Assembly: GCA_030386875.1 (NCBI GenBank)
Contig: CM059556.1
Span: 39,224,964 to 39,288,963 of the forward strand
Reading direction: 5' to 3'
DNA length: 64,000 bases
Origin: Morinoia aosen
Lineage: Eukaryota > Arthropoda > Malacostraca > Amphipoda > Talitridae
Shown here one piece after another: positions 16,905 to 63,660 of this stretch (positions are counted from its first letter, which is position 1; every line of letters begins with the position of its first letter). The position numbers and the translations under genes are program-made. The notes beneath the pieces were generated by a model that was given only the letters and a program-made list of their open reading frames with translations, ran no database searches and was not told the origin of the DNA.

Positions 16905-17087
16905 GCGCTCATTTTGCATCTGGGAGCACTGCTCCCCCCAAATCTGGCTCCACTATTGGCCTAACGGCATAGCGTTTTGGTGACGTCATGAAGTTTGTTT
17001 GAAATGAAGCCTTTCTATTGGCTAGCCGAACAAGAGGAGGTGTATTTTCTCCCATAGAAATGACCCAACCCTGTTTCCTCTACCGTG
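16905..17087. mobile_element. hAT-like MITE family, copy 1 (left end missing)
   Basis: It shares the body GCAGCGCTCAT, GCACTGCT(A/C)CC, TTGGTGACGT, AAAGCCTTTCTATTGG and the right terminus TGTTTCCTCTACCGTG with copies at 45313 and 46023. The left inverted terminus is not present here, so this copy is truncated. Confidence 0.75.
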
Positions 17088-25949: not shown

Positions 25950-26345
25950 ACACAGACTTCTATCTCAGTACAAATTTCACAGGCAGAAGAAGTCTTCACT
26001 CACCAAATCTACTGAAAATCAAGTTATCAAAAAAAAAGAATCAAAAACGTTTCCTACTACTCACAGTCACTCTCTACAATGTCACACACTATACTCTTTA
26101 TATGCAAAGAAAGCTTAACTACCAGTCAAAACACCTCAGTCAAAAATTGCAAGTCACCACACCAAAGTCCAATGCTCAGTCTCAACTCTCACGCAACAAA
26201 AAAACTACTCTCACGAGCACTCCATACAAAGTCACACACTGTACTCACGTGAATATACAAACTATACCATTTTTTAGCAACTTCACTTTAATTCACCACA
26301 ATATTCGTCGGAGGACCAGAAACCAATCAATTGCCACCACGTTCT

Positions 26346-43083: not shown

Positions 43084-43427
43084 TACAGTAGACTCAACAT
43101 CCACGTGAAATACACTCTAGCCACGAAAAGTTTAACAGTCATACATTCGAATTTTGAAACAAACGCTTCTCAGAAGCCGTACGATAAACAACCAGCTGGA
43201 GTTAGTTGGGTTTTTTCGTCTCATGCTGTGGGGACTGGTTCCCTCAGGAGAAATGCTCCTAAATTACCTCCGCTTTAGATAGGCTTGCAGCACTTCTGTA
43301 TTTGTATTTCGAGCTCACTTTGCTTCTTCGGGTGCTTGCCTTCTCTACAATCTGTTGTTTCTTGTTTACGTCTCTTCCCTTCTACTATACTGTTTCTATG
43401 TGTATCCAGCATGTGAACTATACAGAA

Positions 43428-44060
43428 TGAGTTCAGTACAGGATGGGATCCGTACAGTTGGGGTCCGTACAGGATGGGATCCGTACAGGATGGGATCCGT
43501 ACAGTTGGGATCCGTACAGGATGGGATCCGTACAGTTGGGGTCCGTACAGGATGGGATCCGTACAGGATGGGATCCGTACAGGATGGGATCCGTACAGGC
43601 TGGGATTCGTACAGGATGGGATCCGTACAGGATGGGATCCGTACAGGATGGGATCCGTAAAGGATGGGATTCGTACAGGATGGGATCCGTACAGGATTGG
43701 ATCCGTACAGGATGGGATCCGTACAGGATGGGATCCGTACAGGATGGGATCCGTACAGGATTGGATCCGAACAGGATGGGATCCGTAAAGGATGGGATCC
43801 GTACAGGATTGGATCCGTACAGGATAGGATCCATACAGGATGGGATCCGTACAGGATGGGATCCGTACAGGATTGGATCCGTACAGGATGGGATCCGTAC
43901 AGGATGGGATCCGTACAGGATGGGATCCGTACAGGATGGGATCCGTACAGGATGGGATCCGTACAGGATTGGATCCGTACAGGATGGGATCCGTACAGGA
44001 TGGGATCCGTACAGGATTAGATCCGTACAGGGGGAAACCATACAGGATGGGATCTACACA
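43428..44060. repeat. 16-bp minisatellite array, about 39 copies
   Basis: The unit is GTACAGGATGGGATCC. Variants: CAGTTGGG in the left part and CAGGATTGG in the right part. A stop-free 48-bp super-period opens all three frames on + (Asp-Gly-Ile-Arg-Thr-Gly-Trp) and frames on - (Ser-Cys-Thr-Asp-Pro-Ile-Leu-Tyr-Gly), giving spurious frames up to 308 codons. Confidence 0.96.
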
Positions 44061-44639
44061 GTGTGGGATCCGCACCTGTCTCCTGTGTGAGAACACACAT
44101 TGTGTATAGATTCCTGTTTCTACAGTCCATTCCCAATAATTCCTTCCATTTGCTCGCTCTAGATTGTATTTGTTGTGATTGTCTCGATCGTATCTCTCCA
44201 AATCGTCTTTGTAGTGGCTATGGAGTACTGAACTGGTTTAATAATAATTTAAAGTAGAGTTTAAGAGAAGTCAATGCTCAGCGCGTCATGTTGTACTATC
44301 TATGCGCAGAGTTGTGCGGTAAAAGTAGAAATTTTCAAAAAATAGAAAGTTTCACCGACGTGTCATTTTCTTTTATTGACAAACGGTTTTTTAAAACCCA
44401 CATGAACTCTAAAATAAGACCAGACGAATTTCGGGATAAATCCAAAATTTGCAAAATTCAAGCTTTTTAAAAACATTGTTTTTATTTAAACGATATTTAA
44501 ACGATGTTCTCAAAAAAAGATGAGTTGGATGACTTCGTCTGGTTATTGCTAGTGCGAAACACAAGGGAGTCTCCTTTCACAGATGCGGTCATCTCACTTA
44601 GTCTTTAAATTCTCAGCACCTTGATTGGTTGTTTTTCAG
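44061..44639. other. Non-coding stretch with a CCAAT-type motif at its end
   Basis: No gene is recognised. TTGATTGG (inverted CCAATCAA) lies at about 44622, just before the candidate exon. Confidence 0.45.
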
Positions 44640-44725
44640 AGCATTGAAAATGGATTTATTATATTCTACAGCGTCTGCTTGTATTATGACATTCTTCGCT
44701 ACATCGGTTATCCTTTTCATTTCAA
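44640..44725 (+). CDS. Candidate exon encoding a hydrophobic segment (uncertain)
   Basis: The segment is bounded by a pyrimidine-rich acceptor (GGTTGTTTTTCAG) and a perfect GTAAGT donor at 44726. From the ATG at 44650 it reads MDLLYSTASACIMTFFATSV then ILFIS, a hydrophobic stretch that could be a signal anchor. It ends in phase 1, the phase required by the rhodanese exon at 62804, so it could be another alternative N-terminus of that gene. It lies about 1 kb upstream of first exon 1a. The reading rests only on splice signals and composition. Confidence 0.3.
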
Positions 44726-45190
44726 GTAAGTGATTCTTTGGAAATCAGCTATTGCACCTATTTTCAGAGTTAAGGATATTTAACGCTTTGAATATAAACT
44801 ATCATGTCAGCTCCTACGTTTTATTTTTAACGCTAATTTGCAATCCATTCTGATACCTTTCATTTCAAAGCCATTCTGATCAAAAATATTCTTATTATCT
44901 CATAACCACTCCTATCAAAACCATTCCATTTCAACACTTCCTACCCTATTTACCATTTCTCATTTAGATATTTGTTCAATGGAAATTTTGTACATGAAGC
45001 AACTGCTGCTGCAGCTTTTCTTGCTGCTGTTTAAAATAATATGAAACAGTTCGGTAGATGCCTCCACAATGTTTTTGCGGGTTTATTTTAAGCTGCGCAA
45101 CGGGAAGTAATTTATGCATGTTTTGTCTTTAGCGCGAGCTTCCATTCATTGCTTCGCCTTTTAATCAATCTGCTAATCATTGCTCTGTCT

Positions 45191-45689
45191 TTTGCCTGAA
45201 TTTTAAGCACACCAATTTTTGGCTAAGATGCCAATGACGCAGTCAGCATCTGCTGACCCATGATGCGTATTTTAGATACGCATAGCAGTTGTACAGTTGG
45301 CTAGCTGTAGACCACGGAAGAGAAAACAATTTAAGGTCAAACCAGTCTTTTTTTCGTCGGCTGTGAAGGTTTGCAAACCAGTCTTTTTTTCGTCGGCTGT
45401 GAAGGTTTGCAACATACCAATAGCAGCACTCATTGCTTTTGGTAGCACTGCTACCCCCAAATGACGAGATGGCATTTTGATGACCTCATAAAGTTTTCTT
45501 GATATAAAGCCTTTTCATTTGCTAGCCGAACAAGAAGAAGTGTATTTTGCCCCGTAGAAATGACCCTACCTTGTTCCTTCTACCGTGTTGCAGACATCGG
45601 CTGCTGGCAGTGACATCTTTGACTTCGTTGAGGTTGGTTGCATCTGCTTGTTTTGGTTATCGCTTATCAGCTGTCGACCCTCTATAACG
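45191..45689 (+). promoter_or_regulatory. Promoter and 5' leader of first exon 1a, split by a MITE
   Basis: Outside the MITE (45313-45587) this region aligns with the promoter of exon 1c at 58172-58393. Shared: TTTGCCTGAA/TTCGCCTGAA, ATGCCAATG, GACCCATGA, CAGTTGGCTAGCT, CTTTGACTTCGTT and CATCTGCT just before the exon. With the MITE and one copy of its target duplication removed, the two keep equal spacing over the 38 bases after CTAGCT. No TATA box is seen. Confidence 0.65.
45313..45587. mobile_element. hAT-like MITE, copy 2, inserted in promoter 1a
   Basis: 275 bp. The left terminus CACGGAAGAGAAAACAA is inverted relative to the right terminus TTGTTCCTTCTACCGTG. Flanks are CTGTAGAC (45305-45312) and TTGCAGAC (45588-45595), a diverged 8-bp duplication of the hAT/P size. 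Inside is a direct duplication of CCAGTCTTTTTTTCGTCGGC / TGTGAAGGTTTGCAA. The body matches copies at 46023 and 16905. Confidence 0.85.
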
Positions 45690-45696
45690 ATGAGTG
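45690..45696 (+). CDS. Alternative first coding exon 1a of the rhodanese-domain gene
   Basis: ATG AGT G is followed by the strong donor GTGAGTGA at 45697. It ends in phase 1, and the shared exon at 62804 starts with CG, so splicing restores GCG (Ala) and gives Met-Ser-Ala-Asn-Phe-Ser-Asp-Val. The intron would be about 17.1 kb. The same seven bases and donor occur at 53010, and a one-base variant at 58394. The context before the ATG (TCTATAACG) is acceptable. Inferred from sequence only; no transcript was seen. Confidence 0.6.
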
Positions 45697-46022
45697 GTGA
45701 GTGACCCTAGAATGTGCTGCAGAGTATTATGAATAATGGAGCGCTCAGTATTATAAATAATGGAGTTTATGATAGAGTAACGTTTTTCTGTAATGTCTAC
45801 AATAATATCTATTTGTTTCAAGTGTGAAATGCGGTGCACGCTATTATTAATTATTAGTTATTTCTCCCCAAGTTATGATGCTACATCGAACTTGGTTGAC
45901 AACTGACGGACATAGAAAACAATGCCACAGAAACGATCCAAGCAGCCCGTTCACGGATTCTTCTTCACACGCATGTCGTAGATTCGTATTAACACTTTCC
46001 CCGCGTGTTGGACCAAATGTAC

Positions 46023-46290
46023 CACAGTAGAGGAAACAAGGTAAGTTCAAACTAGTTTTTTCGTTGACGGTGTGGTTTTGCTGATGTTACGGCAACGAAC
46101 AAATAGCAGCGCTCATGTTGCATCTGGTAGCACTGCTACCCACAAATCCATCTCTACTATTGGCCTAACGACATGGCGTTTTGGTGACGTAATAAAGTTT
46201 GTTTGAAATAAAGCCTTTCTATTGGATAGCTGAACAATAAGAAGTATATTTTCCCCATATGAATGACCCTACCTTGTTTCCTCTACCGTG
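46023..46290. mobile_element. hAT-like MITE, copy 3
   Basis: 268 bp. The left terminus CACAGTAGAGGAAACAAGGT is the near-perfect inverse of the right terminus ACCTTGTTTCCTCTACCGTG. The flanking 8-mers (AAATGTAC and ATGCTTAC) match only partly. It lies about 330 bp after exon 1a, inside its intron. Confidence 0.85.
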
Positions 46291-49279
46291 ATGCTTACTG
46301 TACCATTAGGTAAATTGTTCATTCACATACCATTATAAATGAATGACATTTTATCTATATCGCAACATTTTCGAAAAATAACTGTAATCATACAAAGTAA
46401 AATATTATCGTGCAATTATATTTTTTCACATTTCTTAGGAAGGATAAAGATGTCTCCGAGCAGTAGATTCGATTTCCCAATTCTGCTACTCTCAACCTAA
46501 CCAAACTAACCATTAACAACCGCGGAAACGCGGTGAACGTATTAAAGCAAGATCTCACATTGAAATTTAAGGTTTCTCTTGCCAATGGAGACTAACCCAA
46601 TATTCCTTTTAAAAAATACAACGCACGCTGGGGACTGGCCCGACCAAGGCTATCCGATTTAACTCGATATTTATAAGGCAATTGAAAATTCAACGCTGAA
46701 TGAGTTATATCCCAACTTGGTTTGAACGTTGAATATATAATGTTTGTGAGTGATTGGAATGTTGTGTGCGTCTTTTACGAGCTTCATTGGAATTTTTAAT
46801 ACATCAAGGACCAGCTTGATTAGAATTGTGAATATTATTACATATACCAGCTTCATTGGGAACCATGAATATTATACCATGTACTCATTTGACTGATATG
46901 GTGAATGTTATTTATCACTTCAACTAGAATGTTCTACTCACTTCGTTCAATGGTTAAAACATCATGTACCAGCTGAATTTAAATGCTTTTTCAACAGGAT
47001 CAGAATATTAATGTGTTTTGGGAATATTAATTAGGTTTTAGAGTTAAATAGCATGCGTCAAATGCATTAAAATGTTGAGTACTTCATGTATCCCTTAACA
47101 AAATTGCTAAACATGTCATGTAGCCGCCTTATTTCATTGAAAATGTTTATACTTTTTATTAAACTGTTTTAATGCCGTTATTTTTAAATGACCCTATCAA
47201 TAAACGACTTTGCTCGTCTCCGAGACGATAAGACTTGCGCCAGTACCTGTGAGGCGAAGGTTAGCTGATAAGAAATGATAGCCGACTTCTTATCTACACA
47301 TTTCCATCCAGTTTGCTCTACATCTGTATGGAGTTGATTAAATCACCGGAACTCACATTTACGGACCATGTACAATTACGAAAAATGGACTATATATAAA
47401 CGGCAATATAAAAGGGATAATAATATATCTAAAATCCACAAACATTTTTAACAGAAACAAAAAACAGAAACAAGTTTAATATATATACGAACAAAAATTT
47501 ACAACATATTTCAAGAAATACATATTTTAATGCTGCGTTTCACTGGACGCTGTTTTTCATTCAAATTTTCCCCATCATCATCTATTATTTTCAAATGAAT
47601 TTATGTGCAAAACTTGCTTAATTTTTCCTCGATCGGAAAGCTTCAAAAATTGTGCTCTGTGCGCGAAGAAAATATGAAGTTTTACCTTCTAATAGATAAA
47701 ACACAAGCTATCGGCAATGTTAGATACCTTGCAAAAAGCTAACGAGGTGAAACTAGCCAGAAGCAACGTTTTGGCTAATAAGGAAAGAATTAACTGAAAG
47801 AATCAGCTACCACGTACACTGTAAACACGTGTAAGTTAACCATGTTCTTCAAATTATTAAAATCTGGTCACATCGCAGTTAAAGTTAGCAGCTTACTTAG
47901 CATTTTTAGCAGCTTACTAAGCATTTTTTTAGCAGCTTACTTATCATTGATCAATTCCTCTTTATATTATTTTTTGTTTGTCTTCTAGCCGTTCTCTATT
48001 CATTGGTGTAGATAATCACCCATAAGTGATTAAGTTGGGGTTTTAATTCCCACAGAACATATTTTAATCTACCTACATATTTTAACTTTATTGCTTAACT
48101 TTATTTCCTTTTTACTTAGTTGCTATAAACTTCAATGAACGAATAAAACTTTAATGAACGTGTTTGATTTGATGTTTAAGAATAAACAGAGAAATGTAAT
48201 TGCTTCCGCCAAACTTATTTTTTGTTGTAAATGAAAGAAAATTTTGCTTCGTAATTTTCCTTAGGGATTCCTGCGTTATTAATTCTTCGATAATCAATTG
48301 AAAGTTGACACTCGCTTTTTAAGTTTATCGTCTTGAAGTATGAAGATTAGCAGATTTAATTTGTTCAATGAATTTTCGTGTAATTGTGATATATATTGTA
48401 ATTGTAATAGTTTCTTCTAATATATTTATGAAAATTTTAAACTCACGTATGGTTTCTTTGTAATTTACTTGGCTAGTCAATAAATTTTGAAGTTCAATAT
48501 CAAAATGTTGGAAATTCTACTCTCTCAGAAAAAATGATCGATTGGCATTCGATTTTTACTCACTAAAGTCTGCGGTAAATGAAACCAGGACTTAACTATC
48601 TTTTTCATATTATTCTATATAAAAGATATCCGCTCTTCGACATCAATTTTAAGAATTAATTCTATTTCTTTTGAGCTTACTAAGTTAAATGAATTTCATT
48701 CGGTATATAGCGCAATTACTTGAAATTGTGATTTTCATTAGCAATATTATAGATTATAAGTACATTAAAAGCGACATGTAGAAAATTTTAATAATTACAT
48801 TTCTTACCTAGTCCAGCAGCAAAATTTTCCACTGAATACCGAGCCCATTTGATTTTGTAGCCAATTTTGTGTTGATGTGGGATTTTTTAACTAAGGAAAA
48901 CATCATCAGTAATATGTCTTAATGTTGAAACCTACATTGAATATAAACTTAAAGCGATAAATTTGGATTTTAAATCCATAAAAATGACAGAATTATTGGC
49001 TAGTGAATATTTACCTCACTGACCTGTACTTCAATTTCAACATATGACACCTTTAAAGAAAATTGCAATCAAACCAGCTGTAAATGACCAAATGAGACGG
49101 GCGCTGTACTTTGTGTCCATAATTTCTAATTGCCCGCACATGAACAAAAAATATCATTATTAGCGCTAAGCCAAAGATCGATCTCAAGTAGATCCTACCA
49201 TTTTCTTGAATTCTAACAATTGGGGAGATGGTGGCATTGAGGAGACGGAAGACGGCTTCGCCTGCTCTGTGTACTAGAG
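46291..49279. other. Intronic or intergenic AT-rich stretch
   Basis: No gene is recognised. 46690-46960 has weak ~45-bp repeats with AC(C/G)AGCTT(C/G)ATT and GAATATTAT. 47890-47945 holds three copies of TTAGCAGCTTACTTAGCATT-type sequence. Confidence 0.5.
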
Positions 49280-49345
49280 CAGGGCTTCTCAACTCTCTAT
49301 TGTCGCGTACCCCTTAGCTTAATGGTGTATCTTCATGTACCCCCA
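49280..49345 (+). mobile_element. Terminus of a hAT-type element (fragment)
   Basis: CAGGGCTTCTCAACTCTCTA, then TTGTCGCGTACCCCTTAGC matches the usual start of hAT MITEs (CAGxGGTTCTCAAAC ... CGTACCCC). A matching opposite end was not found, so the extent is open. Confidence 0.45.
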
Positions 49346-50575
49346 GCACAGTTAAAGGCTTAAGAACCTTCAAAATTAAAAACCTACTGACTACGATGAC
49401 GTTTGCTAAGAACTGCACCAAGGCGTACACACATTTGGGTACCAACATGTCCATCAAAATTGATCTCCTCAAATTATATTATATCTTCTCTTTTCACCGA
49501 ACACTTAGGTTAAATCAGTTACGAGCACGGTGAACGTTCTCAGCATATCTAACTGATGGAGTCACGTTATCGAGATCGATGGAGTGCAGAGATGTTGGCT
49601 GGTTACCGCTCGATACAACAACGTGACGTACCAAATACTCGGCGCAAACGAAAACAATAATAATTTCTCGGCTTATGGGCGAGAAATTTAAACCTATCAT
49701 AATTTAGGTTAGGGAAAAATACACGTTTAGGTTAGGGAAAAACGTGTATGAATTTTCTGTGTGTTTTATTTGTTGAACTACAAATTACTATGTACTCGAT
49801 GTGCCATGCATCTCATTTTTACTATTTTCTTAGCTAATGCCATGTTCGTTATAACTCATGCAAGAATAAATGAGTCTAATGAAATATTAATGGTTAAAGG
49901 CGTGTATAGAACGAACGGTGGGTGATAGACACAAGTAATTTCCACGCCCTGAATTAGCATGTTTCAATTGTTTTAGAATAACTGCTGGATGCAGCTACTT
50001 TTTATAATTTGTTTGCATGTGTAATTATATTTTGTCCGATCTGATTCGGTAGATTTAACCAATAGCAAATTCAGTGCTCCCTGAGACTGAGAGTGAAAAG
50101 CTGCCCCATGATTTTCACGCGCTTAGTCGGAAATAATAATTCAAAATTTTTAATTTCAGCCCATCATTGCCTTCTTCATAGGTATGAGAGCATCGTCAAA
50201 TTTAAGATGCTAAATTTCAAATATTGATAGTTTTACTTCATCAACGTTAACGTAACTGCATCACTTTTTTGTATCAAATTTCTGTTTTTATTTTGTGATT
50301 TGGCCCCGAAATATCATAATGCTAATATGAATTAAATTCAGTTCACGTTCATTTTTTCTCATGTCTTGCTTCTTGCACCTTTCAATATCCTGGTAAGGAT
50401 TATTGGGCTCCCAGTTTACCCTCCATTTACCTTAAATTAAATATTGTAAAATTAAAAACCCGTGTTAATCAATGTCATTCAAAGTGCTGTCTTTTACAAG
50501 AAAATTCAAATGAATCAGTATTAATTAGCGTGAGAAAGATGCTGCGATCAAGGACCAAGATAAGAGCACCTGTAA
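49346..50575. other. Non-coding stretch, no gene recognised
   Basis: It may include the body of the hAT-like element. A small duplication of TTTAGGTTAGGGAAAAA lies near 49704-49742. Confidence 0.45.
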
Positions 50576-50794
50576 TCTATACTATAATAAAAGCGGCGTC
50601 CGTCTCTCTGTCTGTCCGAAGCCAGCCTGCAGTGTGGATGAGCGTATCTGTGATACAAGCTCCAGCACTATATATTTTGATCGGCCGTGTTCGCGCGGCC
50701 TGATCAACTATAGAGAGATTGTGTTTTTTTATTTCTTGCGACGTTTCTCTCATTTTGTGCTCTTTTTTATTTCATAGTTACGGGAGTGGACTAG
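50576..50794 (+). mobile_element. Helitron-like non-autonomous element, first of a head-to-tail pair
   Basis: It begins TCTATACTATAATAAAAGCG directly after an A and ends GGGAGTGGACTAG before a T. This fits the Helitron rule of insertion between A and T, a 5' TC and a 3' CTRR. Internal shared blocks: (TGTC)n, CCGAAGCCAGCCTGCAGTG, GAGCGTATCTGTGATACAAG and the palindrome GGCCGTGTTCGCGCGGCC. Confidence 0.6.
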
Positions 50795-50987
50795 TCTATA
50801 CTATAATATTAGCGGCGTCCGTCCGTCTGTCTGTCCGAAGCCAGCCGAAAGTGTGTGATGAGCGTATCTGTGATACGGGCCGTGTGCACTCGGCCTCATC
50901 AACTCTCGAGAGATTGAATTATTCTACTTTATTGCCTATCTTTCATTTCGCCTTCTTTCTTATTTCAAATAAGGGTGAGTGGACTAG
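50795..50987 (+). mobile_element. Helitron-like non-autonomous element, second of the pair
   Basis: It starts TCTATACTATAATATTAGCG immediately after the CTAG of the first copy and ends GGTGAGTGGACTAG. A small hairpin, CTTATTTCAAATAAG, lies just before the end, where Helitrons carry one. The interior is shorter than the first copy but has the same blocks. Confidence 0.6.
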
Positions 50988-52780
50988 CAATTTCTAAGCC
51001 GGGATGTCTTCGTAACTATTATTTCTCAGTGATCTATTCACTACCGCGATGGAGAGAATAGTCTTCTCGCAAAATTAGATGGTTTAGCTCGAATTTGTGC
51101 TTTCCTGATATTAGTGTTTCAGCTCAAATTGAAGGTTTCTTGTTATCCCGACTTCTGATATTCTACAATTAAATGGTTTCATCATTTTAGCTCCAATTCA
51201 ACATTTTCTGCTACCCTCCGCGTTCTGTAATTTTTTTTATATTACTGTAAAGGCTGCATTTCAATGCCACACAATCTTCATTTCCTTTGCAAGTTAGTTT
51301 TAATGGATTTATTAAGTAAGAATTATTTTACAGGGTTTAAACCAGCGTCTAAAAGTCTTAGCCCTTGTTCTAGACTAGTGACTCGCTGAATCAAGATGTT
51401 TAACCTTACAAGACCGTTATTCAGATGTTTCGATAAATTTCGCATCTACCGCCAAACCGCTGTTTCTAATTTTTGGTACTGTGCCAAGTAAAAAAAAAAA
51501 TTTTTTTAGTACGTGTAAAAATGCGTCACGAACTAAAAAACACCAACCAATTATGGTCAATCCTCATGTTAGCCATTTAAAGTGTCTACCATATGTGATT
51601 GAATCGACTTTGGGTGGTTCAACATTTAATGGCTATGTTCAGATCCTCAGATCTGCTTTGGCTGATGATTCCCGATAAACTTGTTGTGGACCTAATATTT
51701 TCTGTAACAACCGATGTTCTTGACCTATATTTTATTATTGATAATTACAAATTTTCTTGGTATATTTTTCATCGGTTGTTTTTCTTCAGTTGCTCAAATC
51801 AGATAGAGTGGTCTGTTTACATCAAGGAAATGCAAAGTACGCAGTCGTCTTCTGCGGTGGTGGTGAATATATGAGATTATGTTTTAGTCTGTACTTGACG
51901 AACACTTTGACCACAACGTGCGTCACCGGTGGCCACGGAGGACATTCTCATAATGCTGCTGACCGACCAGTAGTCACAAACTTCAATTTTTATAAATACT
52001 TAATTGAAGCAAAATAAAGGCATGATCCAGTTAATGCATACTATTTAAAGCTTCAATAGAAGATTAGGGGCAAAACCAAAGACGTCCACATTTTGCACAT
52101 CATTATGGATGTCATTCACTATCTTTTTTACCTTTCTTACAGGGTATGGCAGTCTGTTCGCAATTGCCGGTGTTTAAACAGCTCTAGTTTTGTATAATGT
52201 GTGTAATTGCCAAGTCAGTAATATTTAGTTCTCTGTTTATATTTGTAGGTTTGCAGCTGATTAGCTGTAATTACCAGGAATAGTTACGGCAATTCCAAGC
52301 TCGAAACGTTCGTTTTAGTGTTGACCACCTACAATTTTAACAATGTTGACTTTTCTGATTTTTGCCCTTATTTTTTTGTGGATAGACTGTATTAAATATA
52401 AGGATTAAGTTTGCCCTGGTTCCTATTTATTCATCATTACAGTCATACAAAATCTTTGAATGTTTTTTGGAGAGGAATATTTGTATTTTCCCCGCAGGAA
52501 GTTTGACGAATGCTAAATGATTACTCCCTACATGTTCTGACATTCTTTTTCCACTCATTTTTCGACATAATCGAGTGTTTACGTTGTGTTTAAGTGTTTA
52601 TTTAAAACTGTTTTATCGAAGCATTTAGCGAAAGATTTTCATTTAGGAGAAAGTGTTTATTGAGTACAACGGAAAAGTGTTTATTTAATAGTGCATTTTC
52701 AAAGCATTTAAAGAAACATTTTTATTGAGTATTAAGTGTTTATTCCAACTATCCGAACCATGGAAAAGATTGTCCAACAA
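50988..52780. other. Non-coding stretch, no gene recognised
   Basis: Short frames at 51481-52017 have no recognised domain. A weak pair with AGCT(C/A)(G/A)AATT recurs near 51086-51195. Confidence 0.45.
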
Positions 52781-53009
52781 AGTGCAGGTAACCCTGTATA
52801 AGTTAAGCATCGAAGAGAAGTCGCGCAGGTAGATGCGGTTGCTCCGCTCGTCCTGCTCGCTGATTGGACGCTGGGGCATCTCCGTAGACGGATGTCAGTC
52901 AGGTGACTCGCATGCTGATGAATCAGTGGATGTCCAGCCGGTGATGGGAGAGGTGCGCTTCGGTCTTGAATATCCCTGAGTACTTCCCACTCCATATCAG
53001 TCATTCAAC
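52781..53009 (+). promoter_or_regulatory. Promoter and 5' leader of first exon 1b
   Basis: A GC-richer patch with GCTGATTGGACG (inverted CCAAT, about 52859) and two matches to the arthropod initiator TCAGTC, at 52895-52900 and about 52998. The second is so close to the ATG that the leader would be very short. It is not visibly related to promoters 1a and 1c. Confidence 0.5.
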
Positions 53010-53016
53010 ATGAGTG
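53010..53016 (+). CDS. Alternative first coding exon 1b of the rhodanese-domain gene
   Basis: ATG AGT G followed by donor GTGAGTAA at 53017. It is identical in its seven coding bases to exon 1a and in the same phase, so it would encode the same protein from a different promoter, with an intron of about 9.8 kb to 62804. The identity of such a short exon could be chance. Agreement in phase, donor and first two codons with two other sites makes chance less likely. Confidence 0.55.
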
Positions 53017-53444
53017 GTGAGTAACGAGCATTGCTACCAGATACTCACTCAGTTTAACAATGTTATTCCAAGAGCATTTATAAGATCCTACTTCATATTT
53101 GGTCAAAATTCTGATACGGTATTCTCCGGCGTCGTTTTGCTATACTTTTTTCTCGTAGCGACTTTTCTTGGACGGAATAATTTGACAAATTCACTGAGTA
53201 AGTTTTCAGTTTTTGAGCAGAGTACATATAATTTTCGAAGAAATGCACAACTGGGATACATGCTATGGTGGGAGCATATTAACACTAAGCCAACCATAAG
53301 CACTCAAATCCGAAAGCGGTAAACGAATCACATCGACAGTGTACGTTTTTCGTTGTGTTCTGCAGGCAACGCGCCAGTGACGTGTGGCAATGATCCTCCT
53401 CCTTCTACCTGCCTCTAATGAGAGAGCCCGTCTACGACAATTTT
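53017..53444. other. Intronic stretch, no feature recognised
   Basis: A 102-codon frame (53014-53322) has no recognised domain and is not called. Confidence 0.45.
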
Positions 53445-53840
53445 TAGTGCACGAATAACAGTTTTAATGCGCTAATAACAATTTTTAATGCCCAAATAAT
53501 AACTTTTAATGCACAAATAACAATGTTTAACTCGTAAATAACAGTTTTAATGCGCTAATAACAATTTTTATTGCCCAAATAACACCTTTTAATACGCAAA
53601 TAACAATATTTAACTCGTATATAACAGTTTTTAATGCGCAAATAACAATTTTTAATGCCCAAATAATAACTTTTATTGCGCAAATAATAATATTTAACTC
53701 GTAAATAACAATTTTTAGTGCGCAAATAACAATTTATAGTGCGCAAATAACAACTTTTAATGCGCAAATAACAATATTTAACTCGTAAATAACAATTTTT
53801 AGTACGCAAATAACAATTTTAGTGCGCAAATAACAATGAA
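53445..53840. repeat. ~21-bp minisatellite array, about 18 copies
   Basis: The unit is AACAATTTTTAATGCGCAAAT with variants TTTAACTCGTA and AATGCCCA appearing in a regular order, suggesting a block of four or five units duplicated as one. Confidence 0.92.
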
Positions 53841-54275
53841 CTCAAAAATTTCAATGTCCCTAATTGCCCGTTACGCGTACATCGGCTCAAAAATGTAGGG
53901 CGGGATTGTATCGTGCGCGAGTTCTTATACGTCAACAAATACAATAATTTTTTTTTTTTTTTTTGAGCTGGAGACAAACGAAGGACTCGAGCTACGAAAT
54001 AATGTGTTGTTCATAAATGCATGAACTATCATATGATGCCCGCTCTATTTTTGGGTTTGTATTTGTTTGTTTGTTTGTTTGTTAGGCAGTACATATTTGG
54101 CGTATAGGCAGTATTAACATCTTTTCTGGATTCCACAGCCATCACATGCATCATGTAGAGGTAAAATAATTTTTCGATCGCTCATCGGGCATCGAAGAAA
54201 ATGTCCCATTTTGTCCGAACGGTGAGTGTTCTTGAACTACGTACACTTTAGCGGGCTTTGCAGCTATTTTCGAAT

Positions 54276-55090
54276 GCTTGAAACAACTTCAGAATGTTTT
54301 GTAATAACTTAATCTTCATTTTTTATAAATTAAATTGGTTTGTAACAACTTCAAAATGCTTCGAAACAACTAAATCGTTTTTTTTTAAACAACTCAAAAT
54401 GGTTTTTGACACCTTCAGAATGCCTCGAAACCACTTTGTGATACTTATAACTACTTTTGCATGCAGTGAAATATCTTGAAAAAGTTCCTTAACCCCTTAA
54501 AGTAAATTTTAACTACTTTACCCTGTTGTGTAACAACTTTGTAAAGCTTGAAACAACTTTAGGGCGCTGTGTAACAACTTTGTAAAGCTTGAAACAACTT
54601 TAGCGCGCTGTGTAACAACTTTGTAAAGCTTGAAACAACTTTAGCGCGCTGTTCAACCACATTAAAATGCTTGAAACAACTTTTGCGAGCTGTGTAACAA
54701 CTTTGTAAAGCTTGAAACAACTTTAGCGCGCTGTGTAACAACTTTGTAAAGCTTGAAACAACTTTAGCGCTCTGTTCAACCACTTTGGAATGCTTGAAAC
54801 AACTTTAGCGCGCTGTATAACAATTTTGTAAAGCATGAAACAACTTTAACGCGCTGTATAACAACTTTGTAAAGCTTGAAACAACTTTAGCGCGCTGTTC
54901 AACCACATTAGAATGCTTGAAACAACTTTTGCGAGCTGTGTAACAACTTTGTAAAGCTTGAAACAACTTTAGCGCGCTGTGTAACAACTTTGAAAAGCTT
55001 GAAACAACTTAAGCGCGCTGTGTAACAACTTTGTAAAGCTTGAAACAACTTTAGTGCGTTGTGTAACAACTTTAGAATGTTTATAAAAGC
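54276..55090. repeat. 41-bp minisatellite array, about 19 copies, with a higher-order block
   Basis: The unit is GAAACAACTTTAGCGCGCTG followed by TGTAACAACTTTGTAAAGCT. The variant TTCAACCACATTA(A/G)AATGC with GCGAGCTG recurs at about 54652 and 54897, near six units apart. The left part (54276-54540) is diverged. Just left of the array are a T-run (about 53949) and a TTTG run (about 54060). Confidence 0.92.
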
Positions 55091-55650
55091 TTCAATGCGG
55101 TTTGCAACAATGAACATTTAACGACTGGGGTATCGAAGAATGACAGTACGCTTTTTTATCAACGTTCAATGGATTTGCTTCAAGCGAGGGGCAGGTAACG
55201 ATAATTTGGAGCAAATAAGAAGTATCCGAGCAATTGCTGATGCTTATTTTCAAATTTTCATTTATCTCTGTTCATGCTTTCTTGTTTATTTATATCCTTC
55301 ACGTCTATCTTTTGTGCTTTACACTGAAATACGAGAAATACAAAATATTCCTAGAATTTATGCTTAGAAAATATTTCCAAATGTCTGCACCAAACATTTA
55401 ACGCTTTTATTTGAAAAAGTGTGAAATTACCAGAGTCTTTTTTTAGTGTACACCGACCTCTTCAAATTTTTTTACTTTCAAATTTCTCGAACAAGAGATT
55501 TAATCCCGACATGTCTATCTGAACACGCCAGCCGGCGCTGCACGCAGGTCAAGTATCGACTTTATTAACATTCTATCTAAATCACACAGAGCTGCTTCTA
55601 CGTTGTGGTCGAATTTAATCTGTTACACTGTACTGTCACGGAACTGAAGT
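55091..55650. other. Non-coding stretch, no feature recognised
   Basis: Only short frames are present. Confidence 0.5.
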
Positions 55651-56763
55651 TATTACGTGGATCGATTTGGAAATCGGGGAATTGTTTTCTCGGTGATTTG
55701 TCGTTGTCTCAAATTTTGTTTTGTCTCAAACTTAGATCTATTTGTAAATTGGGGAATTGTTTTCTCGGTGATTTGTCGTTGTCTCAAATTTTGTTTTGTC
55801 TCAAACTTAGATCTATTTGTAAATTGGGGAATTGTTTTCTCGGTGATTTGTCGTTGCCTCAAATTTTGTTTTGTCTCAAACGTGGATCGATTTGGAAATT
55901 GGGGAATTTTTTTCTCGGTGATTTGTCGTTGTCTCAAATTTTTTTTTGTCTCAAACGTGGATCGATTTGGAAATTGGGGAATTTTTTTCTCGGTGATTTG
56001 TCGTTGTCTCAAATTTTGTTTTGTCTCAAACTTAGATCTATTTGTAAATTGGGGAATTGTTTTCTCGGTGATTTGTCGTTGTCTCAAATTTTGTTTTGTC
56101 TCAAACTTAGATCTATTTGTAAATTGGGGAATTGTTTTCTCGGTGATTTGTCGTTGCCTCAAATTTTGTTTTGTCTCAAACGTGGATCGATTTGGAAATT
56201 GGGGAATTTTTTTCTCGGTGATTTGTCGTTGTCTCAAATTTTGTTTTGTCTCAAACGTGGATCGATTTGGAAATTGGGGAATTGTTTTCTCGGTGATTTG
56301 TCGTTGTCTCAAATTTTGTTTTGTCTCAAACTTAGATCTATTTGTAAATTGGGGAATTTTTTTCTCGGTGATTTGTCGTTGCCTCAAATTTTGTTTTGTC
56401 TCAAACGTGGATCGATTTGGAAATTGGGGAATTTTTTTCTCTGTGATTTGTCGTTGCCTCAAATTTTGTTTTGTCTCAAACGTGGATCGATTTGGAAATT
56501 GGGGAATTTTTTTCTCGGTGATTTGTCGTTGTCTCAAATTTTGTTTTGTCTCAAACGTGGATCGATTTGGAAATTGGGGAATTTTTTTCTCGGTGATTTG
56601 TCGTTGTCTCAAATTTTGTTTTGTCTCAAACGTGGATCGATTTGGAAATTGGGGAATTTTTTTCTCGGTGATTTGTCGTTGTCTCAAATTTTGTTTTGTC
56701 TCAAACGTGGATCGATTTGGAAATTGGGGAATTTTTTTCTCGGTGATTTGTCGTTGTCTCAAA
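55651..56763. repeat. 75-bp minisatellite array, 15 units of two types
   Basis: Type A has GTGGATCGATTTGGAAATTG, type B CTTAGATCTATTTGTAAATTG. Both continue GGGGAATT(G/T)TTTTCTCGG, TGATTTGTCGTTG(T/C)CTC, AAATTTTGTTTTGTCTCAAA. Order by eye: A B B A A B B A A B A A A A A. Blocks 55741-56040 and 56041-56340 are nearly identical, a 300-bp higher-order repeat. Open frames of 421, 369 (+) and 369 (-) codons with a 25-residue period come from the period alone. Confidence 0.97.
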
Positions 56764-57869
56764 TAAAAACGCCTTGGCAGAGCTTTTTGCTTTCCTATTT
56801 CCTTTCCTTTTCTTTTCTTTTTGCTATCAAAGAGCGAGAAATGAAGAAATGTTCCTCTATTATCAAGTAAATTTTTTCTATCAATTAAATTACATAAAAA
56901 GGGCGCGACACATTTTGTGTAATAATTACTTCCTTGCCTTTTGAATATTCAAACTATTTGTGTCTTGAGCCAACATCTGCTGCATTTTAATCGTAATAGT
57001 CAGGTCTAGATCCAATGCTCTACTGTTCAAGCGATCAGTTTTATGTACAGTTCTCAGTTTATAGAACTGCACATCAAGGCCAATTTATTGCCAAGTTCTA
57101 TAACCAAAACTTGCCTTTATGAATTAAAAGAGGCATCTATTTACCCTTAAAGCTACGAAACATTTGTTAATCTAGACGGTGACATAAGAAGGGAAGAAGA
57201 AATTCTGCCTTTTAATTCATTTTCAATTTGTTCACAGGAACGAAATGCAATCCATACAGCGGTGGCAGAAAAAAAATTCCTCAGTAAAAACGAGCTCATA
57301 ATTTCGGTAGTAAAAATTTTTAAGTGAAAACGAGTACGAAATTTCGGTATTGTTAACACAAACATTAGTGTCCAAGAATCGTCAAAAATCTCATGTTTTA
57401 TATTTAATTTTAGAGCGATATTTCGCTCTTGAAAACTGTTTTTGAAACGACCTGTTTTTAATGTTCGACTATTTTTTTAATTCATCTTTTTAAGAGTTAA
57501 GTTAACTGGTAGTGGGTTGCTATCGATAAAACTTAGTCCCAATTGAGAAATGAAAATTAGCAGAAATTGTGCAGAATACTCAGAGTACAGAATGGGGGTA
57601 GAAACGGGGAGACCAGTCATGCAAGTTACAAACTGTCAATTATAAAGTATAAGGATGGGAGGATACTTCTTTTTGCAGTATATCGTATCCTTACGTTTTA
57701 CTTACGTTTACTAAAGATATATTACTTACGTTTTCTAGAATATCTTCCAGTACGATAGTACACACTATACTCAATTCTCTACCTAGAATGAATGTATGTA
57801 ATAGTTCAGCTGCACACACTATGCTCGATTCCTTGCAAAAGCCCTTCCTTAGGGCACAGTTCACACCAA
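56764..57869. other. Non-coding stretch, no gene recognised
   Basis: A local duplication TAC(A/G)AAATTTCGGTA near 57290-57345 and GTACACACTATACTC / TGCACACACTATGCTC near 57757-57825 are seen. Confidence 0.5.
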
Positions 57870-57977
57870 CCCAGTCTAACTTTTTCGCCGGGGCATGCAT
57901 TTTTTTCGCCACCTAAGCGATTTAATTTCTCGGGCGGCGAAAAACATGCACGCAGGCGGCGAAAAAGATAGACAGGG
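57870..57977. mobile_element. Palindromic foldback element, copy 9
   Basis: Arms: CCCAGTCTAACTTTTTCGCC against GGCGAAAAAGATAGACAGGG, and TTTTTTCGCCACCTAAG against CTCGGGCGGCGAAAAACATG. Centre CGATTTAATTT. Confidence 0.85.
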
Positions 57978-58149
57978 AAGAGAACCCTGGGGTTGCGATA
58001 ACTGAAAGAAAACCTGTACAATTAGGTGCCTCAACGGGCTACTAAAATCTAAAAACTATTCAATACGTGTTTCATACCGTATCGTTTCCTGATATGATAT
58101 TAAGCGACACACTGCGACCTAGCTTGCGCACGCTAGATTGGCTAGCTCT

Positions 58150-58393
58150 TCGCCTGAACTTCAGGCTATACCTTCGCCTGAAATGCCAATGCCGGTATCG
58201 GCATTACTGTAGTCGACCCATGAATCGTATCTAGGAGTATCATGAATCGACCCATGAATCGTATCACAGCTGAGGCCAGTTGGCTAGCTACTGGCAGCGA
58301 CTGCCAGCAGTAGGCGCTTTGACTTCGTTCAGATTAGTCATTTCATCTGCTAAGCAGTTTTTTCGCCGGCCTCCGACCCGACCTTCCTCAGCC
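58150..58393 (+). promoter_or_regulatory. Promoter and 5' leader of first exon 1c
   Basis: A diverged duplicate of promoter 1a without the MITE. It has a doubled CGACCCATGAATCGTATC (about 58215-58270), CAGTTGGCTAGCT, GACTTCGTTCAG and an initiator-like TCATTT at 58338-58343, about 50 bp before the ATG. It ends CCTTCCTCAGCC directly before the ATG. Confidence 0.6.
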
Positions 58394-58400
58394 ATGAATG
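58394..58400 (+). CDS. Alternative first coding exon 1c of the rhodanese-domain gene
   Basis: ATG AAT G with donor GTGAGTTA at 58401, phase 1. Spliced to 62804 it gives Met-Asn-Ala-Asn-Phe-Ser-Asp-Val, i.e. Ser2 of exons 1a/1b becomes Asn. The intron would be about 4.4 kb, the shortest of the three. The leader aligns with exon 1a over its last ~70 bases, so 1a and 1c are duplicates that kept start codon, phase and donor. Confidence 0.6.
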
Positions 58401-59265
58401 GTGAGTTATCATTGCCTGTCAATAAATGATTGCTTTAAACTCACACGTTTCATCGCTCAATGAGAGCGGTATGGAATACCTAGACAACAAGATTTAATTT
58501 GCGAAGATATTATTTGGGTGTGAAAATTGATGTCCCTCAAAAAATCATAGATTTAATTTTACGAGTGATAGCGAGTGGCATATTTTATCATTTTGTACTA
58601 CCGATCTAATTAGGAGAGTCGTTCCTGTCGCTTTTCGGCTTTCCCATTTCGCAGATCCGTTCCTTCGTCGTATTACAAATTCTTTTTTTCGACAAATTAC
58701 GAATTTAAACACCTCTGTTTCTGCCCGAGAGAGATTGTGAGGCACAATGTCCGGCTTCAGTAAAGGAGGCGCTGAAAAACTTTGAAGCCCACTTGCATTC
58801 TCCACTCGGCGCAGTCGTTTGCGCATACTGCTGCGTTCGCTCTTTTGCATCAAAGTTGTAACTCTGCAAGCCCCTCAGTCTAACAGTAGCTTGTCTACCG
58901 CAGTTCAGACGTCAGGATTATTTTTTTCTGATTTCCTGCATCTAATTTAGGTCATTTAATGTTTTTTGGCGTCTAATTTAAGACGTTTGATTAATGATTA
59001 TTGTAGTTTTCGCTTTTTGAGAACAATAAATCTCCCTCGTTACGATTTTATCGTTTTTGGATCCTTTGATGACTTGAACAGTGCGTCAAATGGTAGTCGT
59101 ATTTTTATTTCGGTTGAAAATCATTAGTTATCTTTACTATGTGATTCTAGCACATTTCTCGCAAAATTTTATTTTGTTACTATTCATTGTTTATTTATTT
59201 TATATTTTTCTGCAATGATGGAACGTCCTTTTCCTATTCTTGAGTGTGGTGAATGTGGAAAATTT
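58401..59265. other. Intronic stretch with one weak exon-like start
   Basis: 58560-58920 is GC-richer. ATG TCC GGC TTC A at 58749-58761 followed by GTAAAG is in phase 1, but the donor is weak and no promoter pattern is shared with exons 1a-1c. No other feature is seen. Confidence 0.3.
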
Positions 59266-59412
59266 CTTTAGAACGGCAAACATTTTCCCAAATATATCTA
59301 TCTTTTATGTGCAATTCATGAACAAAATTTTCCCAAATACATCTATCCCAAATTTCATTTTCCCAAATATACCTATCCCATATTTTATTTTCCCAAATAT
59401 ATCTATATTTGA
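59266..59412. repeat. 30-bp tandem repeat, about four copies
   Basis: The unit is TTTTCCCAAATATACCTATC plus CCATATTTTA. It is bracketed by TGTGCAATTCATGA(A/G)C on both sides, a duplicated ~16-bp flank. Confidence 0.8.
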
Positions 59413-60542
59413 TGTGCAATTCATGAGCAAAACGGACGTGAATGACATATTGCCACATACTTTCGTTAGCTCCCAAGTAATCCTAAATTCTCAGCTACTA
59501 ATGAATATAGTCATTCTGCATTTTGAATATAAAGTTTTGACCGATAAAATTGATGAAAGCATCAATAATTGGATCCCTACTAAATTAAATAAGCTCTATT
59601 AACCGACTAGTTTTCCTTCTTATGAATTTCAAAGCTTCTTGTCCATGTAAACGTCGTAATAAATGAAAGGCAAATTTCCTCATAGAAGCGAGAGCAAAAC
59701 CTCCAAAACTACATGGGGAGTTTGCTCAACATGACTTTGAAATAACCAAAATACACAGAGATTCTTAAATCAAGATCTCTTTTCATCTCGCACATGATGG
59801 AACTCTTTAAATCTGAATTAAAATTAAAGACATGAGACTCAAAGGTAGACAACCACGGTGATGCCACTTGCCTCGCACCATCTTTTCAAGACTCTTTAAC
59901 ATTTGTGACGATAATATCTAAACATTTGCAGCAGTCTTTTCACAACGCTTAGCTAATGACACAAATGACAGCTATCCCTACACCACAGCAAACTCGACGC
60001 GCTTATTGGAAGTCAGCATCGAAAAAAAAATCACAAGTTACTGGCGAGCGTTACAGAAATTTCAAAGAAAATCACCAGAGGGATTCAAAAACAAAAACTC
60101 TAGGGAACATGTTGGACAATGCCATTCAAACTGTGGTGCATACTTTATTTCCAGCACTCCTGACTGGCTATAAGATAGGCAATAAGTTCAACTTAGTTAA
60201 GTTTATCTATCCTGTGCAAAGCAGACAAGCTCCCCGAGGGAAGATATTGTGAGGTCCCTTCCGTTGTGTGTAAATTAGCCTTTTGAACTTCTTTCTTTCT
60301 TGCACATTTTCTAATTTTCAGTTTTCATGTCTTCTTTGTTATCTTGTCTTTTTCTTTTCTTCTTCTTTATCCTTCCTAACTTGCAGCTTCTGTTTGCAGG
60401 GTATCATTTGTGGAAGTACACTTCTTGCATAGGTTCCTCGTTGTCCCCAGCGTATGCTAACTGGTTCCTTCCCTTCGTTCTCTTCAGATGGCATGTGTTG
60501 TGGCCATAGAGAGTCTTGCACTAACTTATATAATCATCATAT
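59413..60542. other. Intronic stretch, no feature recognised
   Basis: Small frames (up to 98 codons) without domains or shared splice phase are not called. Confidence 0.45.
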
Positions 60543-60800
60543 CTTGTTCCCAAGTATCTCATGCTATCTCCAAAGATACTTCCAAGTATTTCCTATCTTA
60601 AATTCGTTGATTTAGAACATTCAGCGGTATAGAGACTTGAATCACACTACGAATGTCCGGTATAATAATTATAATTTCTTCCCAGATATCTCATACCGTC
60701 TTCAAAAATACTTCCAAGTATTTTCTATCGTAAATTTTGCATTTTAGAACATTCAGCCTTCTAGGGGCTTAAATCATTCTAAGAATGTCCGTTGTCAAAT
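60543..60800. repeat. Tandem duplication, two units of about 132 bp
   Basis: Both units carry CCCA(A/G)(G/A)TATCTCAT, ACTTCCAAGTATTT, TTTAGAACATTCAGC, GG-GCTTAAATCA-like and AAGAATGTCCG. Divergence is moderate. Confidence 0.75.
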
Positions 60801-62803
60801 AATAATACCTGACACAAACAGCACCACTATTTATTTTTTATTCATTTCACAATAGATCACTAATTGTAATGAGACCATTGTGTTCTGAGTTCATTGTTTT
60901 CGCCGTTGCCAATACCATGGAAGGTAATATTTATCTGCCTGAGACTAATATTTACGATAGATCTGAGCAAAGAGTCCTCGGACACAAGCCGTAAGCTTTC
61001 GATATCGACTGCCGGTATTTCACTGAAAATAAACAATCAAGAAAAAGCGAGCATGAAAAATAGTTCTTTTCCGCTTGTGAAACCATGAATATTTTAACGG
61101 ATGTGCCAGGTATCGGAATCAGATGTTTTTGGCATCGAAATCTTCGATAGTATGAGGATAAAAGTTAGGCGAATCGGAATAGGATTTCATTTCATTGGCA
61201 CATTTTTGGACTCGTGATTTGACCACTCTTTGCGAGATAATCAAGTGAGTTTTTAATTGAAATTTCCAGGTTTTTTAATGAATGATGTATATAAGGCTCA
61301 CACTCATACACTGATATTTATGATCACCATGTACAATATATTGATTAGCAGAATCCTTTAAACACGCATTGAAATCGCCAGAAGCGTGGAATTCAAGTTT
61401 CTGGTCATCCACTTTCTACAAATGGATTTTTTTCTTAAAAATTTTCCCAGTTTCAATGATGACATACGCACGAATTCATGGAGGGCATAACTAGCCTGAA
61501 CCCTCGTGACAAGATACCTGGTATGTCTTGATGAGGCTTTTTCTCTTTTAATATGTAAGTTTGGATAAAGTTTCACTCTTAAGATATGTTGAGCTTTATT
61601 TAACATTCATATGTGTATTTTTTTATCTATGCGAAATCCACCTAATGACTCAAGTAAAATATGTTCGTTGTTTTTCAAGATGTAGTGGTAAAGTATTGTG
61701 GTTCATAAAATTTACATGAATTTTTCCTTTATATCTTAGTACTGTAAACCAAAATAATGTAAAGTTTGGGCCCTAAACGTGTAAAAATTTACGCAGTTCA
61801 ACCTTTCATTTTTTTTAATTATATGGTGCTACATGGTTTTTCAGCGAAATTTAAATGAACACCAAAAACATAGTTGAAATTCTAAAAATTGAACTAGTTT
61901 CACCTATTTTCGTCTTGTACTTAATTGATCATGAGCGTTTTCTTCCTTCATCTTGATATACTAAAAAAATGCGTGCAGGGTTCACTGCAATTTCGATGGT
62001 CTCAAAATTCATTTTGCAATTGTTTCCCAGGGCCCTATGACTAATGCGCGTGTTGTTGAACTTTTGTTTCTAAGCAATAAAAAGATCTTGACGTATCAAC
62101 TTATGAAACACGTTCATATGTTTAAACATAAAATTTCATTTTGCAAAATATTCATTAAAGGAAATACGGAAATCTTCTTTTTTCATTTCGGAGGCAAGAA
62201 AAAAAATGATTCTTTCAGTTTTCGGTCAGCGTGACAGTGTCTGAAAAGTTTATCGTGAGTCAGGTAACTCATACACGACAACCGTGATTGATTTTATACA
62301 TATATTCCTCTCGGAAATGCATTTTCTTTTTCAGTAATGACGCCTTTTCCTTTTTCTTCATTGAATTTCGAATTTACATTTTACATTCAACTAGCCATTG
62401 CATTCAACTTGTTGTCTCGTTCTTCTAGGGTCTATGAATTCATCTCATTGAGCTTTAAATTTGCGTCAGATATTAAGGGATGGCTCGCTTTAAGTGATGC
62501 CAGTGGCAAAAAAAAACAATGCACAAGCATATTAACACTTTAACTGCGACAGGTGAAATTTGAATTTATTATTCGACTCGAATTGAAAGTGAATAGTTGT
62601 AAACGATTTTGAATGAGCAAGCATTAACTGATTTGTTCCCTCATTTAGTTTTGATAAAGTATTTATGAAAATTGAGTTCGTTACTTATGGTCGGTCTACA
62701 GCATTATAAAAACTCCCTCACTAACCTGCGGTGGCGCACGTCTCAGTTTAAATGTTAAAGGCATAGAGGGAGAGAGATTATTAATTAGTTGACTTGATTG
62801 CAG
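60801..62803. other. Intron upstream of the rhodanese exon
   Basis: AT-rich, no repeat array. It ends in GACTTGATTGCAG at 62803, the acceptor of the shared exon. The pyrimidine tract is weak. TTATTAATTAGTTGACTTG just before could supply a branch site. Confidence 0.5.
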
Positions 62804-62917
62804 CGAACTTCAGCGACGTACAGGCTGCCCAGAACGACAGCACCGTCATACTCGACGTGCGCAACAAGGACGAGGTGCAGAAGTATGGCAAAATTCCAGG
62901 TGCCCAGTGCGTGCCAC
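62804..62917 (+). CDS. Shared coding exon, start of a rhodanese-like domain (Hsp67B2/CG4456-type)
   Basis: The exon is 114 bp (38 codons, phase 1 at both ends), bounded by TTGCAG and a strong GTGAGT donor. With a first exon it reads M(S/N)ANFSDVQAAQN, then DSTVILDVRNKDEV and QKYGKIPGAQCVP. The pattern (V/I)(I/L)(L/I)DVRxxxE(V/Y)xxxGxIPGAxx(V/I)P is the first half of the rhodanese fold (beta strand, Asp-Val-Arg, helix, Gly-x-Ile-Pro-Gly-Ala). Single-domain arthropod relatives are annotated as heat shock protein 67B2-like or CG4456-like and are about 110 residues long. They are persulfide/sulfur-transfer type proteins, mostly cytosolic. The active-site Cys loop would be on a later exon right of the window, so catalytic activity cannot be judged. 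Codon use is much GC-richer at third positions than the surrounding DNA, supporting a true exon. Confidence 0.88.
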
Positions 62918-63451
62918 GTGAGTATATCTTGTATATCCATCACTTTAAATACCTATTAGCTTAGTAAAGGATTATTCAAAGTTAAATTTCTTTGTTGGCA
63001 GTAGCCAAAAAGACATTTTGGGGGAATAGAATAAGACGTTAGAGTTAGGTGAAGGCAACGAAAATTCGATGCCGTAGTCGACAATAATTTCTGCTTAGGT
63101 ACAACATAATTTTTTAAGAATATTTTCACACAGATCGGTTCTGCGTGAGTCTAAGTCGTTTTTTTTCAAGTTGTAAATCAATGATAATTCATCGTGCAAG
63201 TGTTTTTACATAAAGTACTTTCAGCCAGTAATTTGCTTGCTGTAAATGCATGGCTCTGTTTGCTTGCCGTATGCTAGCTGCAGACCCATAACCATTTCCT
63301 CAAGGAGTCGTTTGGGTCAACGTGAGGTCTACCTCCATATATCGCCTACCCAGATGCAGTTTGAGATATAGTAACATGGCGCTACCTGACCTCTTATAAG
63401 CAGTGTGGATGCATAAACATGGCACTCCCTTACCGCTTATGAGCAAAATAT
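62918..63451. other. Intron downstream of the rhodanese exon
   Basis: AT-rich. From about 63300 degenerate units with ATGGC(G/A)CT(A/C)CC and TATGAGC announce the next array. Confidence 0.5.
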
Positions 63452-63660
63452 ATATAGAAATATGGCGCACCCTAGTCTCGGATGAGCAAAATATATACAG
63501 AAATATGGCACACCCTAATCTCGGATGAGCAAAATATATACAGAAATATGGCGCACCCTAGTCTCGGATGAGCAAAATATATACAGAAATATGGCACACC
63601 CTAATCTCGTATGAGCAAAATACATGCAGAAAAATGGCGCACACTGTATAAGCAAAATAT
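63452..63660. repeat. 43-bp minisatellite array, about five copies
   Basis: The unit is AAATATGGCGCACCCTAGTC followed by TCGGATGAGCAAAATATATA and CAG. The alternating variant GGCACACCCTAATC suggests an 86-bp two-unit block. Confidence 0.9.

Follow-up and report, generated by a model that had tools for sequence, protein, structure and literature searches.

Three seven-base candidate first exons upstream of one rhodanese exon in the amphipod Morinoia aosen: probable alternative promoters, two of them duplicates

Introduction

Where does a protein begin when the first recognizable exon of its gene encodes no methionine, and why would three start codons, each followed by four bases and a splice donor, stand upstream of that exon? 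The question is raised by a locus of the amphipod Morinoia aosen, which was studied in a window of 64 kb (the whole stretch of DNA that was analyzed; all positions are counted from its first base). Close to the end of the window lies an exon encoding the start of a rhodanese domain, and three mini-exons, termed A, B, and C, lie upstream of it on the same strand. The explanation favored here, at a probability of about three in four, is a single rhodanese gene with alternative promoters and first exons, two of which are duplicates of each other.

Results

The rhodanese exon, which would be the common second exon, was placed at 62804-62917 on the + strand. It is entered in phase 1 and left in phase 1, with a GTGAGT donor at 62918. 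Direct reading of the acceptor border at 62804 gave GATTGCAG on the intron side and CGAACTTC on the exon side, and TTGATTGCAG directly precedes the exon, which is then followed by GTGAGT. Joining any of the mini-exons to this exon would give M(S/N)ANFSDVQAAQNDSTVILDVRNKDEVQKYGKIPGAQCVP, that is, a protein beginning MSANFSDV or MNANFSDV. The predicted 40 residues (Ser form) fall within the Pfam family Rhodanese (PF00581), with E = 5.3e-5 and 24 bits at a cut-off of 22.2, and the match covers profile positions 4-36 of 102, the first third only. Against solved structures, the same 40 residues gave no significant match (four up to E = 10, the best at E = 0.052). The gene encodes only these first 40 residues before the window ends, and the rest, including the catalytic cysteine loop, lies outside it. 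The gene product is probably a small single-domain rhodanese of the TSTD1 or fly CG4456 type; CG4456 is the protein also named Hsp67Bb or Hsp67B2. In a single comparison with a working sequence of CG4456, residue 2 of the fly protein lined up with residue 3 of the prediction (39 columns, 36% identity, E = 2e-6), and the fly sequence itself matched solved human-type TSTD1 (6bev) with E = 1.9e-17.

The reading frame of the exon at 62804 is closed upstream by a TAA at 62782, there is no ATG between the two, and the exon encodes no methionine; the start codon therefore lies further upstream. Assuming the predicted splice, profile position 4 is already reached at residue 7, so that the N terminus begins directly at the domain and little of it is missing. 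Taken together with the CG4456 alignment, the position at which the Pfam match starts suggests, for this protein family, a start exon of very few codons. Seven in-phase acceptors were found from 62618 to 62804, of which five run into stop codons and two, 62789 and 62804, are open. The acceptor at 62804 is an ordinary one (29% of the AGs in the window score equal or better on a crude scale), and that at 62789 has a poorer tract than 62804 and would yield a protein beginning MSVDLIAANF. Just upstream of the rhodanese exon, an inverted similarity of 135 bp (73%) was observed between 62608-62741 and 51916-52049, the latter about 1 kb upstream of site B. Base pairing between these arms would be possible in a long transcript starting at A; alternatively, they could simply represent a dispersed repeat.

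The three candidate first coding exons are all on the + strand. Mini-exon A, ATG AGT G, occupies 45690-45696 with a GTGAGT donor at 45697 (direct reading, pattern search, and donor scan) and reads ATGAGTG/GTGAGTGA, the slash marking the border between exon and donor. Mini-exon B, again ATG AGT G, occupies 53010-53016 with GTGAGT at 53017 and was read directly as ATGAGTG/GTGAGTAA. Mini-exon C, ATG AAT G, is found at 58394-58400 with GTGAGT at 58401 (direct reading, pattern search, and donor scan) and reads ATGAATG/GTGAGTTA. The core common to all three is ATGARTG/GTGAGT, the 13-mer ATGARTGGTGAGT, and each mini-exon ends in phase 1, the phase needed by the exon at 62804. At the level of sequence only, this is the arrangement of an alternative-first-exon gene, with at least two in-phase first-exon donors upstream of one common acceptor.

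The frequency of such sites was assessed across the window. The pattern ATGNNNNGTRAGT was matched three times on the + strand and not at all on the − strand, sites A, B, and C being the only occurrences. In 200 first-order Markov sequences of window length, ATGNNNNGTGAGT occurred on average 0.17 times per simulated sequence and three occurrences were reached in none (0/200), and the 13-mer ATGARTGGTGAGT occurred 0.01 times on average. A looser pattern, ATGNNNNGTRRGK, brought in one extra + strand site, at 37754 (ATGCGTC/GTGAGG), which is without the common core. On a generic splice-donor matrix, not trained on Morinoia aosen, the donors of A, B, and C fall within the top 0.3% of the 3387 GTs on the + strand. 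A start-exon filter was also applied to the 64-kb window, admitting ATG exons of at most 61 nt that end in phase 1, carry a purine at −3, and have a donor no weaker than the weakest of the three. On the + strand exactly A, B, and C passed, the base at −3 being A in sites A and B and G in site C. The earlier note on this DNA had described three seven-base exons in phase 1 with GTGAGT donors, and these are confirmed by direct reading and exceed chance.

On the − strand two exons passed the filter, both within frames of a LINE-type element at 21367-25964. This element, on the − strand, has matches to reverse transcriptase (PF00078, E = 6.3e-32) and endonuclease (PF14529, E = 4.7e-11), together with a PF03372 match in the next frame and a GDSL-lipase match in an upstream frame (E = 3.9e-4), both of the latter below cut-off. 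The strong GC skew at 22-26 kb is probably due to this element.

Chance matches, or fragments of a dispersed repeat, could account for the mini-exons, with the true first exon lying elsewhere, for example at 61478-61520 or upstream of the window. The repeat content of the window, about 21% of which is masked as tandem repeat, speaks for this idea, as does the phase-1 candidate at 61478. This candidate (MEGITSLNPRDKIP) is the sole one between C and 62804 when phase-1 start exons are allowed a length of 400 nt and a donor score within 3 bits, and its donor is the weaker (7.8 versus 10.4 bits); in that interval, no start exon in phase 1 reaches the donor strength of the three. The rarity of the core, and the fact that all three sites are in phase and on the strand of the gene, make the explanation quite improbable. 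The long minisatellites of the window are located at 4717-7678, 1889-2539, 31015-31847, 43421-44072, 55655-56764, and 63439-63642, with units such as 24 bp × 123 and 75 bp × 15. Searches of the window for RNA families at the gathering threshold and for tRNAs returned none.

The sequences leading up to A and C were found to be related. The putative promoter and leader of C (58132-58393, + strand) correspond to two separate + strand stretches upstream of A, namely a distal part at 45172-45312, homologous to the sequence from 58132 onward, and a proximal promoter/leader at 45596-45689, homologous to leader C. When the sequence inserted between these parts is left out, alignment of A from 45172 with C from 58132 gives 182 identical bases among 230 paired, with many small gaps, a count that takes in the 13-base exon plus donor. 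The local alignment score is 130, compared with a maximum of 62 among 500 random window segments, and the alignment ends at the splice donor. For the next 250 bases past the donor, the score is 38, which is no excess over the null (median 32, 95th percentile 52). The leaders considered by themselves (94 bases before the ATG of A and ~ 100 before that of C) have a local score of 37, which 0 of 200 resampled pairs reach; the anchored leader score was reached by 0 of 991 random window segments and, in another control, by 1 of 200.

Beyond the insertion, the similarity resumes between 45191-45270 and 58149-58230, where 0 of 1000 random segments are as good under either of two scorings. The region 45150-45340 alone scores 32 against C (aligned over 45191-45270), the maximum of 1000 random segments being 30. 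Further upstream, comparison of 44700-45190 with 57600-58148 revealed no homology (score 20). The 100 nt leading up to the start contain no ATG in either A or C. Judged from these alignments, one putative promoter-plus-first-exon unit is present in two diverged copies, A and C. The retention of similarity in promoter, leader, and mini-exon, and its loss at the donor, suggests that both copies may be under constraint, although a duplication breakpoint located at the donor would give the same picture.

These data also bear on chance matches or repeat pieces as the source of the mini-exons. The A–C similarity stops at the donor, a limit that a repeat need not respect, and each of the short A and C blocks has the other as its best match (score 37), the next-best matches in the window scoring 22 and 25. 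As a counter-point, a longer C segment also has a gapped match near 7.9 kb (58322-58366 to 7899-7947) with a score of 32, versus 37 for A–C.

Promoter unit A is split by a stretch of 275 bp (45313-45587, no strand assigned) that is absent from C and is flanked by CTGTAGAC and TTGCAGAC, which agree at 6 of 8 positions. This stretch is read as a MITE-like insertion that would have occurred later than the A–C duplication. Its relatives in the window are found at 46092-46294 (75% identical) and 16901-17087 (73%), and those two are 87% alike. A terminal inverted repeat of 20 nt is matched at 14/20 positions in the A copy and at 19/20 in the copy at 46023-46290, the flanks of which agree at only 4 of 8. 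A small MITE-like family can be described from the three related stretches 45313-45587, 46023-46290, and 16901-17087, with terminal inverted repeats seen in the first two. The divergence of about a quarter between the insertion and its relatives hints at an old event and is no proof of one. A dispersed-repeat origin of the mini-exons was rejected, the repeat upstream of A ending before the leader and no ATGARTGGTGAGT lying near its two relatives. Elsewhere, a sequence of ~ 75 bp at 57902-57980 is matched eleven more times at seven other locations of the window, with matches on both strands; it is self-inverted (57870-57977) and is probably another small palindromic dispersed repeat.

Site B has only the exon and donor in common with the A and C units. 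Comparison of B with unit A or unit C on either strand gave background scores in 8 of 8 cases, and B as a third copy of that unit was rejected as not detectable. Its leader, without detectable kinship to those of A and C, carries four ATGs within its last 100 nt, and B transcripts would therefore start very near the ATG or have their translation damped; an initiator-like TCAGTC is found close to the ATG, at −13. B would be a copy that has diverged further, or an independent acquisition. The core 13-mer, the purine at −3, and the position all favor B as a candidate, but it is still the least certain of the three.

The features of A and B would suit a locus in which a single first exon is used, most simply C, which is nearest to the rhodanese exon and has an unbroken promoter, with A and B as relics of earlier duplications: promoter A is split by the MITE-like insertion, and B has an unrelated leader and four upstream ATGs. 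Such a history is unlikely, since A, B, and C have all kept an intact ATG, an equal length of 7 nt, and a donor in the top 0.3%. The repeat in A is only 75% and 73% identical to its relatives, which hints at age, yet mini-exon A and its donor are intact despite the splitting of the promoter.

The presence of a second gene body was examined with the predicted 40 residues. A tblastn search found no second rhodanese exon in the window, including the interval between A and 62804, the next match having E = 2.7. Pfam was run on 10 of the 78 listed stop-to-stop frames of at least 60 amino acids at 43-64 kb, and none of the ten has a domain above cut-off (two weak matches had E = 0.045 and 0.084). Within these limits, the searches reveal no further gene body to which A or B could belong. 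A and C being duplicates, and gene duplication being a common source of repeated first exons, the mini-exons might each have belonged to a separate tandem rhodanese gene, two of the bodies being lost or elsewhere. The searches for other bodies argue against this, and the order A, B, C, exon 2 would require the genes to be interleaved, which leaves the proposal very improbable indeed. A single gene is preferred. The earlier note had placed the mini-exons in register with one rhodanese exon, which the matching phases and the search for a second exon bear out. Its broader claim of one gene with at least three promoters holds in part: the register, the single rhodanese exon, and the duplicated promoter of A and C speak for it, and the part of B, without leader homology, is less certain.

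Promoter motifs were sought in the 300 nt upstream of each start, using generic definitions for these and for the heat-shock and metal-response motifs. For A, a TATAAA was found at −187, inside the insertion, and a TCATTT at −175; for B, TCAGTC at −115 and −13 and TCATTC at −9; and for C, TCATTT at −56. No TATA or initiator position is consistent across A, B, and C over these 300 nt, where 0.75 initiators are expected from background. The earlier note had also hinted at heat stress. The 64-kb window contains no exact three-unit heat-shock element, and of 27 elements with one mismatch, one is within 1 kb upstream of B and none is within that distance of A or C. Two-unit sites number 48, with one at −661 from C. 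Heat-shock control was rejected as being without motif support. Metal-response core motifs number 49 in the window, with three within 1 kb upstream of C and none for A or B.

Discussion

In the preferred reading of one gene with alternative first exons, each first exon would have its own promoter and leader and would contribute only seven coding bases, the ATG plus four. The first exons would be spliced over 17.1 kb (A), 9.8 kb (B), or 4.4 kb (C) to the common exon at 62804, and the resulting proteins would be alike save for residue 2, Ser or Asn. Which first exon is chosen would mainly decide the promoter and the 5′ leader. A and C would have arisen by duplication of one promoter-plus-first-exon unit, and the MITE-like insertion would later have split A. 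We infer that each leader is transcribed and that the three splice junctions form; A and C are likely to be in use, and B is less certain to be.

Alternative first exons are a known kind of arrangement, and alternative promoters for one and the same protein are well known. Mouse Rbfox1 has alternative first exons and promoters encoding an identical protein (PMC7214753), and prawn beta-actin has two transcripts differing in the untranslated leader (PMC6202971). The likeness is that more than one promoter, each linked to a first exon or leader of its own, leads to a protein that is identical or almost so; the difference is that the candidate first exons of the rhodanese gene hold a start codon plus four bases. 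The clustered protocadherins and the 5′ cassettes of chelicerate sDscam (PMC4835542) consist of tandem 5′ units with their own promoters that are spliced to a constant exon. The present locus likewise has tandem 5′ units, each with its own putative promoter, and a common downstream exon. In contrast, the protocadherin and sDscam units encode variable domains and generate protein diversity, whereas each mini-exon encodes Met, Ser or Asn, and one further base, and thus no variable protein domain. What is unusual here is the near-absence of coding content, three times over, together with a demonstrable promoter duplication.

In the fly, CG4456 and CG12279 are described as small single-domain rhodaneses of 111 residues and CG4456 as overlapping hsp22 and being stress-inducible (PMC12189691), with Hsp22 and Hsp67Bb forming the dicistronic gene CG32041 (PMC1175994). 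On those descriptions, 5′ regulation out of the ordinary has a precedent in this protein type. The M. aosen protein resembles CG4456 in its predicted small single-domain type and its N terminus; the difference is between a stress-inducible fly gene and a window with no exact three-unit heat-shock element. Among the matches listed for titles and abstract openings in the openly licensed literature, there was no case of one exon being fed by several first exons limited to a start codon, and no description of the first exons of this rhodanese gene, which is weak evidence of absence.

The first exons differ only in Ser2 or Asn2, and regulation rather than protein diversity is therefore the likely point of the arrangement. 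The earlier reading of the locus as one of transcriptional rather than protein diversity is plausible, with the qualification that Ser2 versus Asn2 could alter N-terminal processing. N termini beginning Met-Ser and Met-Asn would be processed differently. A bolder interpretation, which we regard as doubtful, is that the locus is a promoter array like that of the protocadherins whose units have lost their coding content. A promoter with its seven-base start exon would have been duplicated and kept in the service of a small enzyme; first-exon choice would set tissue or stress control and would also carry a promoter-linked difference in N-terminal processing. By the usual N-terminal rules, the C form (Met-Asn) would retain its first Met, with acetylation by NatB, and the A/B form (Met-Ser) would lose its Met, with acetylation by NatA, so that protein stability would be linked to the promoter used.

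If one rhodanese gene is indeed served by these first exons, the locus would be a clear-cut case of promoters being multiplied while the protein stays as it was, with start exons short enough to escape gene finders and read aligners. The duplicate pair A and C, with a transposon in one copy, would make the effect of an insertion on promoter use measurable. The locus would also serve as a warning that, for small genes lacking an annotated start codon, start exons of fewer than 10 coding bases may lie many kilobases upstream.
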